A stretch of DNA of 64,000 bases from an uncultured Nitrospirales bacterium (GTDB taxonomy: Bacteria > Nitrospirota > Nitrospiria > Nitrospirales > UBA8639). Below, piece after piece: positions 38,895-63,630 of this stretch. How positions within the stretch are numbered: the first letter of the stretch is position 1; each line of letters opens with the position of its first letter. The stretch lies in contig OY282373.1 in NCBI GenBank assembly GCA_958295805.1, positions 95,001 to 159,000 of the forward strand, read 5' to 3'. The notes below the pieces were generated by a model. It was not told the origin of the DNA and did no database searches. It saw only the letters and a program-made list of their open reading frames with translations. A program made the translations under genes and the position numbers.

Positions 38895-39305
38895 CGTTGC
38901 CCTACTCGGTCATCCAGCCAGGGATTGAGATACCATTGTTCCGTTGAACCCTGGGGCCTGTCGGGTCTTGCTGCCGGGGGTAGGGGCGGTTCGCGAACCG
39001 CCCCTACTGGTCAAAGGATGAACGGGTGGTTCGACAGGCTCACCATGAGCGGCTGTATATTGTAGTGGGTCAAGAGCCGAAATACCCTCGTTTGAATTAA
39101 ATTTTGCGATGTACCAACAGGGGCTGTATATTGTAGTGGGTCAAGAGCCGAAATACCCGGCGGGTATCTGCCCATAGGCTTGCAATAGGGTTTATAATTG
39201 GGGAGTTACCGCGTAGTTACGCTGCCGGAACTAGCGAAAACATAAATTGACGCTGCGGGAAATCCCGGCGCCTTTAAGCTCACAACACGCAACAAGGGAG
39301 ATAAG
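38895..39305. repeat. Gap with palindrome and a 37-bp direct repeat
   Basis: A GGGGCGGTTCGCGAACCGCC palindrome lies at about 38986-39006. A 37-bp direct repeat beginning GGCTGTATATTGTAGTGGGT occupies 39051-39087 and 39122-39158. The two copies are 71 bases apart. No gene or clear RNA is seen. Confidence 0.75.
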
Positions 39306-56834: not shown

Positions 56835-57200
56835 TCAGCGGGAACGATCCTCTGGTTTGTCTCGAAACCACCAGGCCAAGTACATGCCGGCGATGGCCAA
56901 GGTGACCAACTCCACGGTCTGGAGAACTCGACTCACCACCGCCTCGGGCTGCGGGGGAGACAGGATAAAGTGCATCCCTAAATAGGCGGGCGGCTCACCG
57001 GGCGGCGATTCCCACGGCGGAAACAGCACCGCCACAATCAACGCCCCCACCATGACGTACAAAATCCGAAGATTGAGAATTTCCTTGGCCCGAGACGCCT
57101 CGCGCGGCTCCTGAAAAACCTGCTTCCCGCAATCGGGACAAAAACGAGCCGCCGAAGGCACCGCCTGCCCGCAAGCCCGACACGTCTTAGGATCATTCAT
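56835..57200 (-). CDS. Zinc-ribbon membrane protein, hypothetical
   Basis: 121 residues from ATG 57200 (MNDPKTCRACGQAVPSAARF). An N-terminal zinc ribbon (CRAC and CPDC) is followed by two membrane segments (about 42-58 and 90-110) and a short basic tail. It runs convergent to the CARF gene, two bases from its stop, and downstream of the tracrRNA terminator on the same strand. No family assigned. Confidence 0.65.
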   Translation of the reverse strand: MNDPKTCRACGQAVPSAARFCPDCGKQVFQEPREASRAKEILNLRILYVMVGALIVAVLFPPWESPPGEPPAYLGMHFILSPPQPEAVVSRVLQTVELVTLAIAGMYLAWWFRDKPEDRSR

Positions 57201-57240
57201 CACGGACACGCCAGAAATGGAAAGGAAACAGCTATACACA

Positions 57241-57272
57241 TAAACACAAAAGGGCGACCCGTAGGTCGCCCT
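57241..57272 (-). terminator. Intrinsic terminator of tracrRNA
   Basis: Minus-strand reading: AGGGCGACC (57272-57264), TACG loop, GGTCGCCCT (57259-57251), then TTTTGTGTTTA. A 9-bp perfect stem closed by C(UACG)G, an extra-stable tetraloop, followed by a U-rich run. Confidence 0.88.
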
Positions 57273-57337
57273 CTGAATGTTGCGAATTCTCGCTTGTTAA
57301 TCCTAGCGAAAACCGCCTATTCCCATATGTTCTAAGG
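57243..57337 (-). ncRNA. tracrRNA of the type II-C locus
   Basis: About 95 nt on the minus strand, divergent from cas9. The 5' part (57337-57296) is the anti-repeat. ATGGGAATAGGCGG pairs with CCGCCTATTCCCAT of the crRNA repeat over 14 bp. After a small internal loop, GCTAGGA pairs with TCCTAGC, and AAC with GTT. Then come a small hairpin GCGA-GAAT-TCGC (57293-57282) and the terminator hairpin. This is the expected tracrRNA plan: anti-repeat, nexus-like hairpin, terminator. The start is inferred from the promoter. Confidence 0.9.
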
Positions 57338-57343
57338 AGTTAT

Positions 57344-57372
57344 ATACTACACCGTTCCTAGTTGAGAATCAA
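57344..57372 (-). promoter_or_regulatory. tracrRNA promoter
   Basis: Minus strand: -35 TTGATT (57372-57367), 17-base spacer, -10 TAGTAT (57349-57344). Transcription would begin near 57337, at the first base of the anti-repeat. It lies between the divergent tracrRNA and cas9 starts. Confidence 0.72.
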
Positions 57373-57399
57373 TCTCCAAAGAAGAAGGAGGTTTTTACA

Positions 57400-60300
57400 A
57401 TGTTTTCTTACAGACTAGGACTAGATGTCGGCACCAACTCCCTTGGATGGAGCGTGTTGGAACTCAAGGAAGCAGGCGAGCCGTTTGCAGTGAGAGATGC
57501 CGGCGTCAGGATTTTCAACGATGGACGCGATGACCAATCCAAAGCCACGTTGAAAGCCGATCGTCGCGCGGCTCGTTCAGCCCGCCGACGCCGCGACCGC
57601 TATAAGCAGCGCAGGGACTTCTTGTTGGATGAACTGACCAAAGCCGGGCTGTTTCCCAAACAAGACGAAGAAGACGAACACGGCGACAACATACGCGACA
57701 AACTGCAAAAACTTGATCCGCTGGAACTGCGTGCCAAGGCGATCACGGAAACATTGAAGCCCTATGAGATTGGCCGGGCTCTGTTTCACCTGAACCAACA
57801 CCGGGGGTTCAAGAGTAATCGAAAGGATGCCGAATCCCGCGATGGTGTCGTCAAAAAATCTGTTAAGAAACTGAAAACCGAACTGACCAAACTGGCCGAA
57901 AGTGATGTGGAAACATTCGGCCAGTTCCTATGGCAACGACGCAAGGTCAACGAACCGACTCGTGCGCGGCGGCATGGCACAACACAACAAGATCTGTACG
58001 AGTTCTATCCCACTCGCGACATGTTGGAGCATGAGTTTACTAAGATTTGGGACGCGCAGGCTGAATGCCATCCCGAATTACTCCCGGAGAAAACCCGCGA
58101 ACGTATCAGGAGCGTGATCTTTACCCAGCGCCTGCTCAAGCCGCAAAAGGTCGGAAAATGCACCTACATGTCTGGCGAGAATCGGGTGTTCAAATCCATG
58201 CCGAGTTTTCAGCGTTATCGGATTTATCAAGAAGTGAATAATCTGGAATGGATGACAAGCCGACAAAGGAATGCACTGATTCAATATCCAGAGGCACGAA
58301 ACAAAATTGTCGACATGCTAGAACGCCCCAAGACCAAGGCTGGTAATGTCACCTTCGGCAAAATGAAGAAGATTATGAGAGAAATGGAACTGGCCGAAGG
58401 TCATTTTCAGTTCAATTTTGAAACACCGAAACGCAAAGGCTTTGACGGCAATCACACATCTAACCTGATGCAGGATGAACGTCGTGTCGGGCCGCAATGG
58501 CACCAGTGGTCTCTGGAAAAACAGGATGAATTTATTAGTATCATTTTGAACGATGAACTGGATGACCATGCAGTCCAAGAACGCTTGATGCAGGACTATG
58601 GCCTTAGCAAGGAGGCGGCAATGGCATGTACTGAGGCACCGCTGACGGAAGGCACGGCGGCTCTGTCAAGGAAGGCAGCGCATTTGCTACTTGCAAAAAT
58701 GAAGGACGACATGCTGAGCCAGACGGACGCCGTACAGGCTGTTGCACAAGAGGAAACAGATTTTGTCAACCCTTTCAAACGCGCCAGTGAGGGCCAATTG
58801 CTGGATCGCTTGCCCTATTACGGCGAAGTATTTCAGGATGGCCGTCATATTATTCTGGGTAGCCGTGAAGAAGACGACGACGGCGATGACCTGAAGTATT
58901 TTGGCGGTGTGACCAACCCCACGGGCCACCGCCAAAATCAAATTCCTAAGATCAGACGAGATGACCTGAAGTATTTTGGCGGTGTGACCAACCCCACGGT
59001 GCATATCGCGTTGAACCAGATTCGTCACGTGGTGAATGAATTGCTCACCCGTTATGGGCATCCGGCTTCCATTGCCATTGAACTGGGGCGTGAGTTGCCC
59101 GCCGGAAAGGAAGGTCGCGCTGAGATCGAGAAGGAGCAGAGAAAAAATCAGGAAAACAACGAGAGGCTGAACAGTATTTTACGCGAACATGGCCAAACAT
59201 GTACCCACGATAATCGCCTGCGTTTGCGACTCTGGGAAGAATTAGACGATGATCCGAATGGTCGCCGATGTCCTTTCTCTGGACAGAAAATAGGCATTGC
59301 CGACCTGTTCAACGGTAACGCCGAGATCGAACACTTGATCCCCTTCAGCATATCGCTGGATGACAGCCCCGCCAACAAAGTGATTTGCACCCGTCAGGCC
59401 AACCGCAATAAAGGACAACGAACACCGTATGAGGCTTTTGGTGATAGTCCTGATGGTTACAATTGGAAAGAAATTTTTGAACGGTGTACAAAGCTGCCAA
59501 AGAACAAACACTGGCGTTTCCAGGAGGATGCATTGGAGATATGGAAACGCGACTACGCTGACTTTACAGCCCGGCATTTGAATGACACACGGTATATCGG
59601 CCGGCTGGCCAAGGACTACCTGGAAAACATTTGTCCGTTCAACAAGATCGACGTGCTGACGGGGCGGCTTACGGCTTTGTTGCGGAGCCACTGGGGATTG
59701 AACAGCGTCCTACACGACCAGAATCAACCGCAAGAAGGAAAAAAGAACCGCAACGACCACCGCCATCATGCGGTGGATGCGATTGTGGTCGGTATGACTT
59801 CGCGCTCCATGCTCCAACGGGTCTCCACCGCCGCCAACCGCGCCGAAGAATTTTACCTAGACCGTTTATTTGAGAGGAGCGTCAACGGTAGAAGCCCCAT
59901 TGATCCATGGCCTAAATTCCGTGATGACGTGAGAGACATAGTGAGGGGTATGATCGTCTCACACAAGCCGAAACGAAAACCGCTCCAGGCGCAGGTGGAT
60001 GCCTGGATGCAGGCCAATAGCATGATCGTCTCACACAAGCCGAAACGAAAACCGCTGGGCACAAATACAACTGACGGTAAACTACACAATGAGACGGCGT
60101 ATGGCATCATTTCAGGACCGAACAAGGGTTATTATAACGTGGTTAACCGTTGGGAGATTAAAAAATTCGAAAAGAGGGAACATGTAGAAAATATCCGTGA
60201 TGAACATTTGCGGGACGAATTTTTGCAGGCTTTTGATGCTGCTGATAAGAACGGTATTGTCCGTCTTGCCAAGGACAAAAAGATAAGACGGTTAAGACGA

Positions 60301-60792
60301 ACCGAAAGACTGAAAGTCATTCCCATCAAAAACATATCCGGCAAGGAATATAAAGCTTATAAAGGCGACAGCAACTGGGGAATAGAGATTTACGAATATC
60401 CAGACGGCCACACAAAGGCGGGACAATGGGATGGTGAGGTTCTATCGAGATATGAGGCCAACCAAAAAGGGTTTCGACCCGGGCAGACGAAAAAGCCGCA
60501 CCCGGCTGCACGGCTGGTCATGCGACTGCGAATCAACGATTGTGTTGAAATTACGAAAGATGAGCATAGGCAAATCATGCGGTTACAAAAACTTTCGCAG
60601 AATGGAACTCTAACGTTTGCTCCACATAATGAAGCGAACGTTGATGCGAGAAACCGTGACAAGAATGATTCGTTTAAATATTTCTCCAAAACAGCTAGCA
60701 CACTTAAGGGAAGCAACGCCCGTAAGATGCACATCAGTCCGGCTGGTCGGGTGACTTATGAAAGCCGTCGCAAGCCCCGCCGAAAGCACTGA
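57400..60792 (+). CDS. cas9: Type II-C CRISPR-associated endonuclease Cas9
   Basis: 1130 residues, behind a strong AAGGAGG site. RuvC-I YRLGLDVGTNSLGWSVLE has the catalytic D9. An Arg-rich bridge helix follows (about 52-75, ADRRAARSARRRRDRYKQRR). RuvC-II IAIELGREL has E561. HNH EIEHLIPFS has H645, with the partner N668. RuvC-III HRHHAVDAIVVG has H790 and D793. All nuclease residues are present, so it should cut crRNA-matched DNA. Size and the absence of csn2/cas4 fit type II-C. Odd: residues 496-533 and 851-886 each contain a duplicated 12-13 residue motif (DDLKYFGGVTNPT, MIVSHKPKRKPL) around an unrelated insert, adding 25 and 24 residues in frame. The PAM-interacting C-terminus is basic (SRRKPRRKH). 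cas1 follows six bases later. Confidence 0.97.
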   Translation: MFSYRLGLDVGTNSLGWSVLELKEAGEPFAVRDAGVRIFNDGRDDQSKATLKADRRAARSARRRRDRYKQRRDFLLDELTKAGLFPKQDEEDEHGDNIRDKLQKLDPLELRAKAITETLKPYEIGRALFHLNQHRGFKSNRKDAESRDGVVKKSVKKLKTELTKLAESDVETFGQFLWQRRKVNEPTRARRHGTTQQDLYEFYPTRDMLEHEFTKIWDAQAECHPELLPEKTRERIRSVIFTQRLLKPQKVGKCTYMSGENRVFKSMPSFQRYRIYQEVNNLEWMTSRQRNALIQYPEARNKIVDMLERPKTKAGNVTFGKMKKIMREMELAEGHFQFNFETPKRKGFDGNHTSNLMQDERRVGPQWHQWSLEKQDEFISIILNDELDDHAVQERLMQDYGLSKEAAMACTEAPLTEGTAALSRKAAHLLLAKMKDDMLSQTDAVQAVAQEETDFVNPFKRASEGQLLDRLPYYGEVFQDGRHIILGSREEDDDGDDLKYFGGVTNPTGHRQNQIPKIRRDDLKYFGGVTNPTVHIALNQIRHVVNELLTRYGHPASIAIELGRELPAGKEGRAEIEKEQRKNQENNERLNSILREHGQTCTHDNRLRLRLWEELDDDPNGRRCPFSGQKIGIADLFNGNAEIEHLIPFSISLDDSPANKVICTRQANRNKGQRTPYEAFGDSPDGYNWKEIFERCTKLPKNKHWRFQEDALEIWKRDYADFTARHLNDTRYIGRLAKDYLENICPFNKIDVLTGRLTALLRSHWGLNSVLHDQNQPQEGKKNRNDHRHHAVDAIVVGMTSRSMLQRVSTAANRAEEFYLDRLFERSVNGRSPIDPWPKFRDDVRDIVRGMIVSHKPKRKPLQAQVDAWMQANSMIVSHKPKRKPLGTNTTDGKLHNETAYGIISGPNKGYYNVVNRWEIKKFEKREHVENIRDEHLRDEFLQAFDAADKNGIVRLAKDKKIRRLRRTERLKVIPIKNISGKEYKAYKGDSNWGIEIYEYPDGHTKAGQWDGEVLSRYEANQKGFRPGQTKKPHPAARLVMRLRINDCVEITKDEHRQIMRLQKLSQNGTLTFAPHNEANVDARNRDKNDSFKYFSKTASTLKGSNARKMHISPAGRVTYESRRKPRRKH
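58885..58999 (+). repeat. In-frame 40-bp direct repeat inside cas9 (first)
   Basis: A 40-bp unit starting GATGACCTGAAGTATTTTGG is repeated perfectly at 58885-58924 and 58960-58999 (period 75). The 35-bp insert contains CACCGCCAAAAT (58927-58938), the exact inverse complement of ATTTTGGCGGTG within each copy (58898-58909 and 58973-58984). It sits just before RuvC-II, where family members read a single GG(V/I)xNPTVHIALNQ. Confidence 0.92.
59950..60056 (+). repeat. In-frame 35-bp direct repeat inside cas9 (second)
   Basis: A 35-bp unit starting ATGATCGTCTCACACAAGCC is repeated perfectly at 59950-59984 and 60022-60056 (period 72), separated by 37 bp encoding QAQVDAWMQANS. It lies after RuvC-III, where other Cas9 proteins have one IVSHKPKRK segment before the GxLHxETAYG motif. 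Confidence 0.92.
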
Positions 60793-60798
60793 TGCGTC

Positions 60799-61707
60799 AT
60801 GCCCGATCAGATTGTTGAAATCACCACGCCTGGACTGCATCTCTCCAAGAAGCGCGGATTTTTACAGGTGAGAAACAAGGGCAAACTCGTTGGACAGGTA
60901 TCACTGGACGACATCATCGCCGTGATTGTCGGCGTGCAGGGCTGCTCAATTTCCACCAGACTCATGGATCAACTCAGCCAGCGAAACATTATGCTGGTGG
61001 TGTGCGGACGAAACTTTGTCCCCAGTTCTTTCATCCTGCCTGTTGCCGGTTACGGACGGCAATTCCAGGTGATGCGAGCACAGACGAAAGTGTCTGAACC
61101 GCGCCGCAAACGCGCTTGGCAAAGGATCGTCCGTGCCAAAATTCATAACCAAGCCGAGTTACTCGCTCGCGTGGGGAAAAACAACAACCAGCTTGTCCGG
61201 CTGGCAAACATGGTAAAGTCCGGCGATCCGGAAAATTGCGAGGCGCAGGCCGCACGCATCTATTGGCAACGACTGTTTGGCAACCACTTCCGACGTGACC
61301 CCGAAGCACCGGGGTTGAACGCTGCACTGAATTACAGTTATGCCGTGATACGCGCATGTGTGGCTCGCGGAGTGAGCGCGGCAGGTCTGCATCCTAGTTT
61401 TGGTCTGCATCACAAGAACCCGCAAAACCCGCTGAATCTTGTTGACGATTTGGTAGAACCTTTCCGGCCGATCGCCGACTATGTTGTTTGGCAAGGTAAT
61501 ATCGGTTGCATTCAGGATCTCTCACCAAAAATAAAGGCAAGTCTGTCGACGATTACCACGATGGTCATCCCACTCAAGGAAGAGACCTCTCCTGTGTCAT
61601 TGGCGGCAGTGAAGGTCTGCCGTTCATTCGCCGGTTACTGCCTTAGCGAAACGGATGAGCTTTTGTTGCCCGCCCTACCCACGCCTCCCGACATTTCAGG
61701 CCCATGA
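60799..61707 (+). CDS. cas1: CRISPR-associated endonuclease Cas1
   Basis: 302 residues. The N-terminal beta domain has VEITTPGLHLSKKRGFLQVR. The alpha domain has the metal ligands E148 (NCEAQAARIYW), H205 (GLHHKNPQNPLN) and E220 (DDLVEPFRPIADYVVW), at the positions known for type II Cas1. It integrates spacers with Cas2. The start ATG 60799 is six bases after the cas9 stop. The end overlaps cas2 by four bases (ATGA). Confidence 0.96.
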   Translation: MPDQIVEITTPGLHLSKKRGFLQVRNKGKLVGQVSLDDIIAVIVGVQGCSISTRLMDQLSQRNIMLVVCGRNFVPSSFILPVAGYGRQFQVMRAQTKVSEPRRKRAWQRIVRAKIHNQAELLARVGKNNNQLVRLANMVKSGDPENCEAQAARIYWQRLFGNHFRRDPEAPGLNAALNYSYAVIRACVARGVSAAGLHPSFGLHHKNPQNPLNLVDDLVEPFRPIADYVVWQGNIGCIQDLSPKIKASLSTITTMVIPLKEETSPVSLAAVKVCRSFAGYCLSETDELLLPALPTPPDISGP

Positions 61708-62045
61708 AGCAACGGAAACATCTCAGTCCCTATCGTATCATGTGGCTCTTTGTGATGTTTGACCTGCCCGTTGTGACTAAAAAGGAAAGAAAGCAGGCGA
61801 TGGGTTTTCGCAACAACCTGCTTGACCTCGGTTTTGAAATGTCACAATTTTCGGTGTATGTGAAATATTGCGCCTCTGGCGACAGGGCAGAATTTGTCGG
61901 TGTCCGGATCCAACGCCAGTTACCGCCTGGCGGAAAGGTTGATATTCTGACGATTACCGACAAGCAATTTACGAATATGAAGCGATTTTATGCTACAAGC
62001 CGAATCAAAAATGACGGGAAAGTTGATCAATTGCATTTGTTTTGA
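61704..62045 (+). CDS. cas2: CRISPR-associated endoribonuclease-fold protein Cas2
   Basis: 113 residues of ferredoxin fold: YRIMWLFVMFDLPVVTKKER with the conserved aspartate, SQFSVYVKYCASGDRAEFVG, LPPGGKVDILTITDKQF and a C-terminal KVDQLHLF. It bridges two Cas1 dimers during spacer acquisition. It is the last cas gene and is translationally coupled to cas1. Confidence 0.95.
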   Translation: MKQRKHLSPYRIMWLFVMFDLPVVTKKERKQAMGFRNNLLDLGFEMSQFSVYVKYCASGDRAEFVGVRIQRQLPPGGKVDILTITDKQFTNMKRFYATSRIKNDGKVDQLHLF

Positions 62046-62085
62046 AGGGATTTTTTCAGCATCAGGCAGAGAAAATCCCTTCAAA
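62041..62085. terminator. 14-bp perfect stem-loop at the cas2-array boundary
   Basis: TTTGAAGGGATTTT (62041-62054) and AAAATCCCTTCAAA (62072-62085) with a 17-base loop. It starts inside the last codons of cas2 and ends 22 bases before the first repeat. There is no U-tract after either arm, so intrinsic termination is not certain. It could also stop or process convergent transcripts of cas2 and the array. Confidence 0.6.
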
Positions 62086-62107
62086 CATAAGGCCTTACAG
62101 AGGACCT

Positions 62108-63529
62108 AGCCTAGCACATGGGAATAGGCGGGGCTAGGACAACGATTTGAAGTGCCTATTGAGCATGTGGCCGAGCCTAGCACATGGGAATAGGCGGGGC
62201 TAGGACAACTACTGAAGAACCATATGCTGAATATATTCGAGCCTAGCACATGGGAATAGGCGGGGCTAGGACAACAAGTGACCCGTGTTATTTGGCGCTT
62301 GGATCAGCCTAGCACATGGGAATAGGCGGGGCTAGGACAACAGATTCGAGGTACCTATTGAGCATGTGGCCAGCCTAGCACATGGGAATAGGCGGGGCTA
62401 GGACAACAGCCGTCCGTTTCTCCGTCGGACACTACTGAGCCTAGCACATGGGAATAGGCGGGGCTAGGACAACGATCGTACGGCTCCAAAGCTTATATGT
62501 CAGAGCCTAGCACATGGGAATAGGCGGGGCTAGGACAACCAGGAGGTCTCTACTATTTTGGAAAAGGTCAGCCTAGCACATGGGAATAGGCGGGGCTAGG
62601 ACAACAGAAGCTTTGTGATCCACTACATATTGTGGAGCCTAGCACATGGGAATAGGCGGGGCTAGGACAACTACAGATTAGCAGTGGTTATCGCTGTACG
62701 GAGCCTAGCACATGGGAATAGGCGGGGCTAGGACAACAACCGGTTCCTATAGGTTTCTTCTTCTTTAAGCCTAGCACATGGGAATAGGCGGGGCTAGGAC
62801 AACCGTTGGTCAGTCTCTGACGAACGCGGATTTAGCCTAGCACATGGGAATAGGCGGGGCTAGGACAACAGCATCCTATCTGGTGTTGATGTCATCATAA
62901 GCCTAGCACATGGGAATAGGCGGGGCTAGGACAACCACTCAGTCAGTCAGGCTATCGTCGTTCCGAGCCTAGCACATGGGAATAGGCGGGGCTAGGACAA
63001 CAAGGTTCGAGCCTATAAATCCTAGATGTGTAGCCTAGCACATGGGAATAGGCGGGGCTAGGACAACTCACTTCGCCCTATTGCTAAAGCAATCGGGAGC
63101 CTAGCACATGGGAATAGGCGGGGCTAGGACAACAGAATCAGGAGCCTCACATGAACTGGTTCTAGCCTAGCACATGGGAATAGGCGGGGCTAGGACAACT
63201 ACCGCAATCAAATCGTTGAATAAAAACCAAGCCTAGCACATGGGAATAGGCGGGGCTAGGACAACGGATACCATTGTTGCATGGTCATGCCTTCGAGCCT
63301 AGCACATGGGAATAGGCGGGGCTAGGACAACACAGCTATCCATCGCACGCATCACCCGCACAGCCTAGCACATGGGAATAGGCGGGGCTAGGACAACGCG
63401 TGGGATGTTCTAACGGAGGGTGTAACTAGCCTAGCACATGGGAATAGGCGGGGCTAGGACAACCGGCCGCCGCGGGTCATCCGTTCAGGATGAAGCCTAG
63501 CACATGGGAATAGGCGGGGCTAGGACAAC
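62108..63529 (-). CRISPR. CRISPR array, 22 repeats of 36 bp and 21 spacers of 30 bp
   Basis: Repeats begin every 66 bases from 62108 to 63494. All 22 appear identical and every spacer is exactly 30 nt. In the minus orientation the repeat starts GTTGTCCTAGCCCCGCC and ends ATGTGCTAGGCT, the GTTG start typical of type II-C, and it is complementary to the tracrRNA. So crRNA is expected from the minus strand, with the leader on the high-coordinate side. The repeat's 3' end contains TGCTAGGCT, an extended -10-like element at the place where Neisseria repeats carry TGCTACAAT, so each unit may have its own promoter. Spacers 62144-62173 and 62342-62371 are homologous. Confidence 0.98.
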
Positions 63530-63630
63530 GTAAGCTCAAAGCGACATTCATGAACCTTGAAGCTTGGCGAAGGTATTGCAAGATCATTGATGTACCTTCG
63601 GGTCGTTCTTTCCATATACTCTCACGAAAA
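63530..63630 (-). promoter_or_regulatory. Putative CRISPR leader
   Basis: About 100 bases adjoining the last (leader-proximal) repeat. It contains an 8-bp inverted repeat, CGAAGGTA (63568-63575) and TACCTTCG (63593-63600), with a 17-base AT-rich loop, 39 bases from the repeat edge. No good sigma70 promoter towards the array is seen. Assigned as leader from orientation only. Confidence 0.55.

Follow-up and report, generated by a model that had tools for sequence, protein, structure and literature searches.

The window, as we call the whole stretch of 64,000 nucleotides analysed here, contains a cas9 gene in which two perfect direct repeats each enclose a short insert. How do such structures come to lie within a CRISPR effector gene, and do they give the protein a new part? 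We refer to each repeat pair with its insert as an event and to the repeated sequence as its target (Table 1).

We found that a single open reading frame (ORF) encodes this Cas9 (NCBIfam TIGR01865, 622.8 bits against a cut-off of 100 in a profile search). It shares with type II-C Cas9 the family profile, the HNH and RuvC motifs, a 36/30 array and the gene order cas9-cas1-cas2-array, with neither csn2 nor cas4 alongside, and differs in two lineage-specific insertions that five related Cas9s lack. The ORF list holds no further ORF of appreciable size between cas9, cas1, cas2 and the array, and Rfam gave no match at gathering score within 57200-63600. Upstream of cas9, the reverse-complemented II-C repeat finds its best match at 57301-57336 (19/36 ungapped, with the run GCCTATTCCCAT); going by this run and its position, a tracrRNA anti-repeat may lie here, a score of 19/36 being reached elsewhere as well.

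Table 1. Coordinates of the cas9 locus, the four events and the resident CRISPR-Cas systems. Positions are those of the window unless given in Mb or as a contig position.
Feature	Position	Strand	Content	Basis or remark
cas9 (type II-C)	57400..60792	+	1130 aa; events 1 and 2 inside	ORF list, NCBIfam profile
Event 1, target copy 1	58885..58924	+	40 bp	exact repeat scan
Event 1, insert	58925..58959	+	35 bp, single-copy; 12 bp inverse to target	putative spacer
Event 1, target copy 2	58960..58999	+	40 bp	exact repeat scan
Event 2, target copy 1	59950..59984	+	35 bp	exact repeat scan
Event 2, insert	59985..60021	+	37 bp, single-copy	putative spacer
Event 2, target copy 2	60022..60056	+	35 bp	exact repeat scan
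Event 3, target copy 1	39051..39087	+	37 bp, intergenic	
Event 3, insert	39088..39121	+	34 bp, single-copy	putative spacer
Event 3, target copy 2	39122..39158	+	37 bp	
Event 4	L054:3968 (contig position 723968)		repeat/insert 37/37	
II-C cas1 and cas2	60799..62045	+	cas1 60799-61707, cas2 61704-62045	judged not the source of the events
II-C array	62108..63529	+	22 repeats of 36 bp, 21 spacers	
Type I-MYXAN (I-B-like)	2.316 Mb		cas6, cas3, cas8a1, cas7, cas5, cas4-cas1 fusion, cas2	
Type I-G	0.27 Mb		Cas4-Cas1; repeat 36, spacers 36-38	
Type III-A	2.85 Mb		cas10, csm3, cas1; repeat 37, spacers 34-36 in 13 units	two irregular gaps

The exact scan reproduced to the base the two perfect repeats, around inserts of 35 and 37 bp, that the initial annotation had described: the copies are 100% identical over 40 bp at a spacing of 75 in event 1 and over 35 bp at a spacing of 72 in event 2. 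The frame stays open through both, as had been claimed, in one 1130-aa ORF; the protein gains 25 residues in event 1 (GHRQNQIPKIRR from the insert and a second DDLKYFGGVTNPT) and 24 in event 2 (QAQVDAWMQANS from the insert and a second MIVSHKPKRKPL). The repeated peptides begin at residues 496 and 521 in event 1 and at residues 851 and 875 in event 2. The catalytic motifs are retained, again as annotated, and all four were located: LDVGTNS from residue 8, IAIELGREL from 558, IEHLIPFS from 643 and HRHHAVDA from 787, which we take to be RuvC-I, RuvC-II, HNH and RuvC-III, with their catalytic roles assumed likewise. The events had been placed close to RuvC-II and RuvC-III; event 1 does lie near RuvC-II, and for event 2, approximately 60-95 residues past RuvC-III, the description is loose. 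Alignment to solved Cas9 chains begins at approximately residue 522-531, so event 1 lies just ahead of the aligned RuvC-II part. A structure model of the Cas9 (two sequences) reached a mean pLDDT of 33.5, too poor for placing the inserts.

A Cas9 search of 97 genomes returned six with a match, namely this genome, four others from its genus and one other member of its order; a scan of contigs gave one relative (L017, a Nitrospirales bin), which was taken to be the same contig as that of genome G008. All five related Cas9s carry a single copy at both event sites. A conserved Cas9 subdomain is thereby ruled out, in line with the orthologue comparison that the initial annotation had proposed. A second cas9 acting as donor is likewise ruled out, since this genome has only one match. 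In the relative G006, cas9 is split between two ORFs (L019:4550-7878), with both event sites in the second; a pseudogene or an assembly break is possible there. Our data indicate that the two cas9 events are independent and lineage-specific, with the motifs kept. All four events of Table 1 look recent on the timescale of these relatives because the copies are identical within each pair.

We scanned 92 non-overlapping stretches of this genome for exact direct repeats (1.884 Mb, 65% of its 2,904,372 bases), taking as isolated pairs those with a repeat of at least 20 bp and a gap of at least 10 bp. There are 27 such pairs; the repeat, the insert or both recur in 16, and both are single-copy in 11. 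Seven of these 11 have repeats shorter than 30 bp and gaps of 21, 25, 29, 41, 66, 107 and 184. The other four, comprising every single-copy pair with a repeat of at least 30 bp, have repeat/insert lengths of 40/35, 35/37, 37/34 and 37/37, thus forming one class of 35-40 bp repeats and 34-37 bp inserts. Two are the cas9 events, which leaves no more than two, events 3 and 4, that do not depend on the original finding; three of the four fall within the window. Event 4 causes a frameshift in a Sel1-repeat gene (Sel1 E 1.1e-6, 29.4 bits against a Pfam cut-off of 30.7), and its flanks, when joined without the insertion, give a short C-terminus and a clean stop. A further pair, L030:12866 (36/35, 94% alike), was excluded since the exact scan reads it as 23/48 and its insert recurs in the genome. 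The targets are single-copy, which rules out a repeat family at these sites.

The last 0.4 Mb of this genome to be sampled held no event of the class. Neither did 0.4 Mb of G010 (a genome without a match to Cas9 or to the MYXAN Cas4-Cas1), 0.4 Mb of G087 (with Cas1 matches at two places) or 155 kb around the relatives' CRISPR loci, samples too small for proving a difference from this genome. Repeat pairs in general are commoner here: 1.484 Mb of this genome gave 17 rows, and the three comparison samples gave 1, 0 and 1.

Four CRISPR-Cas systems share this 2.9 Mb genome (II-C, I-MYXAN, I-G and III-A), and every one of them has a cas1 and an array of its own. The local II-C system is ruled out as the integrator, since its spacers are 30 bp long in 21 of 21 cases. 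The cas1 and cas2 genes of the class 1 systems appear intact (MYXAN Cas4-Cas1 and Cas2, I-G Cas4-Cas1 and type III Cas1); in a profile search the MYXAN Cas4-Cas1 (535 aa) gave a full-length match above the cut-off, and its Cas2 (99 aa) also scored above the cut-off. The MYXAN array has repeats of 36 bp and spacers of 34 (three), 35 (ten), 36 (six) and 37 bp (two), and it is the only array that spans all four insert lengths of 35, 37, 34 and 37. The duplications, at 40, 35, 37 and 37 bp, compare with resident repeats of 36-37 bp and are not strictly 36 bp; with the duplication fixed at a strict 36 bp, the inserts become 39, 36, 35 and 38 and I-G fits approximately as well as MYXAN. The repeat and spacer lengths of the resident class 1 systems match the four events. 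The averages given in PMC11237760 for myxobacterial arrays, 35 bp for I-B-type and 36-37 bp for I-G-type spacers, make the MYXAN and I-G spacer sizes found here appear ordinary.

The arrays themselves hold some further features. Spacer 7 of the II-C array (approximately 62551-62570) and spacer 3 of the I-G array (L114:11119-11137) agree over 19-20 bases when one of them is read in inverse orientation, as though both had been taken from a single invader. A MYXAN spacer beside a degenerate repeat (L080:4322-5855) matches a multi-site repeat family of its own genome at up to 31 of 33 positions and looks self-derived, or like part of a degenerate array end. Spacers 13 and 14 of the I-G array (L114:10919-12048) do not differ over 37 bp, which marks a duplicated unit within the array.

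We consider it probable that each event is one spacer that a class 1 Cas1-Cas2 complex, with the MYXAN Cas4-Cas1/Cas2 as the most likely candidate, integrated outside the arrays. Cas1-Cas2 would join both ends of a prespacer of approximately 35 bp to opposite strands of the target, approximately 36 bp apart, and gap filling would then copy the 35-40 bp between the nicks, leaving target, insert and target as a one-spacer 'neo-array'. Away from an array, the same reaction would duplicate any sequence that happened to lie between the two nicks. We infer here that an integrase acted, which of the three class 1 systems it came from and that the inserts are foreign. Several points speak against integration outside the arrays, among them that it does not predict an inverse match to the target in insert 1, that the duplication lengths vary more than they do in arrays, that no insert gave a protospacer and that just two of the events are independent of the original finding.

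Given that integrases can favour sites resembling their own leader-repeat junction, we took the five bases to either side of each edge of the four targets and matched them, in the better of two orientations, to three junctions, in small tests devised after the sites were known. With the MYXAN junction 20 of 40 positions agreed where 13.3 were expected (p 0.009), compared with 11 for I-G (p 0.79) and 15 for type III (p 0.24), each over the four sites. The 7-mer AGCCGAA is common to three of the four targets (p 0.005 for any shared 7-mer) and resembles TGCCGTAA, the core of the MYXAN repeat. In register with that repeat, event 2 agrees at 18 of 36 positions (p 0.002), the other three events being unremarkable. 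When the targets were compared with whole repeats at free offsets, no firm resemblance emerged (lowest p 0.033 among 16 tests). These resemblances point to MYXAN, tentatively and with somewhat less than even confidence, as the acting system.

The inserts were also compared with the rest of the genome. Their GC fractions, 0.46, 0.65, 0.35 and 0.24 for inserts 1 to 4, compare with 0.33-0.80 among the spacers of the genome's own arrays. Copying from elsewhere in the genome is ruled out: each insert is single-copy, with no other genomic copy at up to three mismatches over the central 24-27 bases. None of the four gave a convincing protospacer in viral contigs (one 19-mer per insert), in phages (all four inserts) or in plasmids (insert 2), and two 19-bp viral matches do not extend (26/37 and 24/37 positions). 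Since none of three genuine MYXAN spacers, used as a control, gave a protospacer, the missing protospacers of the inserts say little.

An alternative held in part by the initial annotation is that template switching during faulty replication or repair produced these structures, with the opposite strand of the target as template for part of insert 1 and some other place as the source of the remainder. Insert 1 does contain the reported 12-bp exact inverse complement of its own target, CACCGCCAAAAT, a length reached in none of 300 shuffles of the insert and in approximately 1 of 10,000 random 40-mer/35-mer pairs from the genome (400,000 pairs), and insert 4 has 7 bp in common with its target in direct orientation (p 0.017). 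A significant local inverted match is confined to insert 1, with none for inserts 2-4, so template switching is not supported as a general cause. Inserts 2 and 3 and the remaining 23 bp of insert 1 have no source nearby, and slippage gives no reason for four pairs of 35-40/34-37 bp with no other single-copy pair of at least 30 bp. We therefore regard this explanation as unlikely; a template switch during repair of an integration intermediate could account for the inverse match of insert 1, which is speculation.

An error of assembly or sequencing is highly improbable. The events are unique to this assembly and are known from the assembled sequence, but the genome is a single contig (99.85% complete, 1.11% contamination), the four events form one size class that matches the resident arrays, and the inserts, being single-copy, are not misjoined genome sequence. 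A short mobile element of non-CRISPR type, leaving a long target-site duplication, would fit the narrow insert size and the lineage-specific occurrence; we give it scarcely any credence because the four inserts are each single-copy and have no sequence in common, and their GC of 0.24-0.65 is spacer-like and unlike that of copies of one element. That the inserts, whatever their origin, were selected as functional Cas9 loops altering the handling of RNA, DNA or PAM is very unlikely in our judgement. Two in-frame events in one gene with intact motifs and perfect copies would suit it, and the initial annotation had read the frame in this way, but both would stay in frame by chance with a probability of 1/9, events of the same class lie out of frame and between genes, and neither insert occurs in any of the five related Cas9s. 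Selection need not be invoked.

Integration outside the arrays can account for the open frame. The existence of an intergenic event (event 3) and a frameshifting one (event 4) indicates that the process also yields out-of-frame events, and two of two in frame needs no more than the loss of those that broke the frame. The cas9 events would have survived since their lengths (75 and 72) and sequences left the frame open. Frame retention is thus probably survivorship and not new Cas9 function, and the 25 and 24 extra residues are most likely tolerated passengers. We think it rather unlikely, on present evidence, that class 1 adaptation complexes repeatedly paste spacers outside arrays in this lineage as a source of in-frame insertions of approximately 25 residues, with the Cas9 of a co-resident system twice remodelled, possibly through conflict or tuning between systems.

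To our knowledge, integration of spacers outside arrays is known mainly from overexpression and in vitro work. A 2018 study, cited in PMC9456107 and PMC11788318, reportedly described a spacer-length insert between duplicated repeat-length targets outside arrays. The anatomy here is the same; the present cases differ in being natural chromosomal events as read from sequence, two of them in frame in the cas9 of another system, with an I-MYXAN Cas4-Cas1 fusion complex as their likeliest maker. We found no report of spacers integrated in cas9 in the openly licensed literature searched. Integration outside arrays in vivo upon Cas1-Cas2 overexpression is cited in PMC11788318. For acquisition within an array, PMC6895254 describes a new spacer joined to both repeat ends, with gap filling duplicating the repeat. 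The same paper reports that off-target sites of Streptococcus thermophilus type II-A Cas1-Cas2 in vitro favour likeness to its own leader-repeat junction; the four sites found here appear to resemble the junction of their putative integrase likewise. The S. thermophilus products were probably half-site and on plasmids, whereas those found here are full, repaired, duplicated and chromosomal.

Since the dimensions of the events are those of the units that the genome's other CRISPR systems add, stray memory fragments in the gene of another system are the most likely explanation. The cas9 duplications are thus most likely rare marks left in nature by CRISPR writing beyond the arrays, and they do not obviously amount to a new part of Cas9. 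If this is true, a natural chromosome carries four full-site scars, two of them in the effector of another CRISPR system, and adaptation would mutate host genes in nature. A single-copy insert of spacer length between perfect duplications of repeat length would then be a signature that can be counted across genomes, and the leakiness of Cas4-Cas1 fusion integrases would become directly testable.
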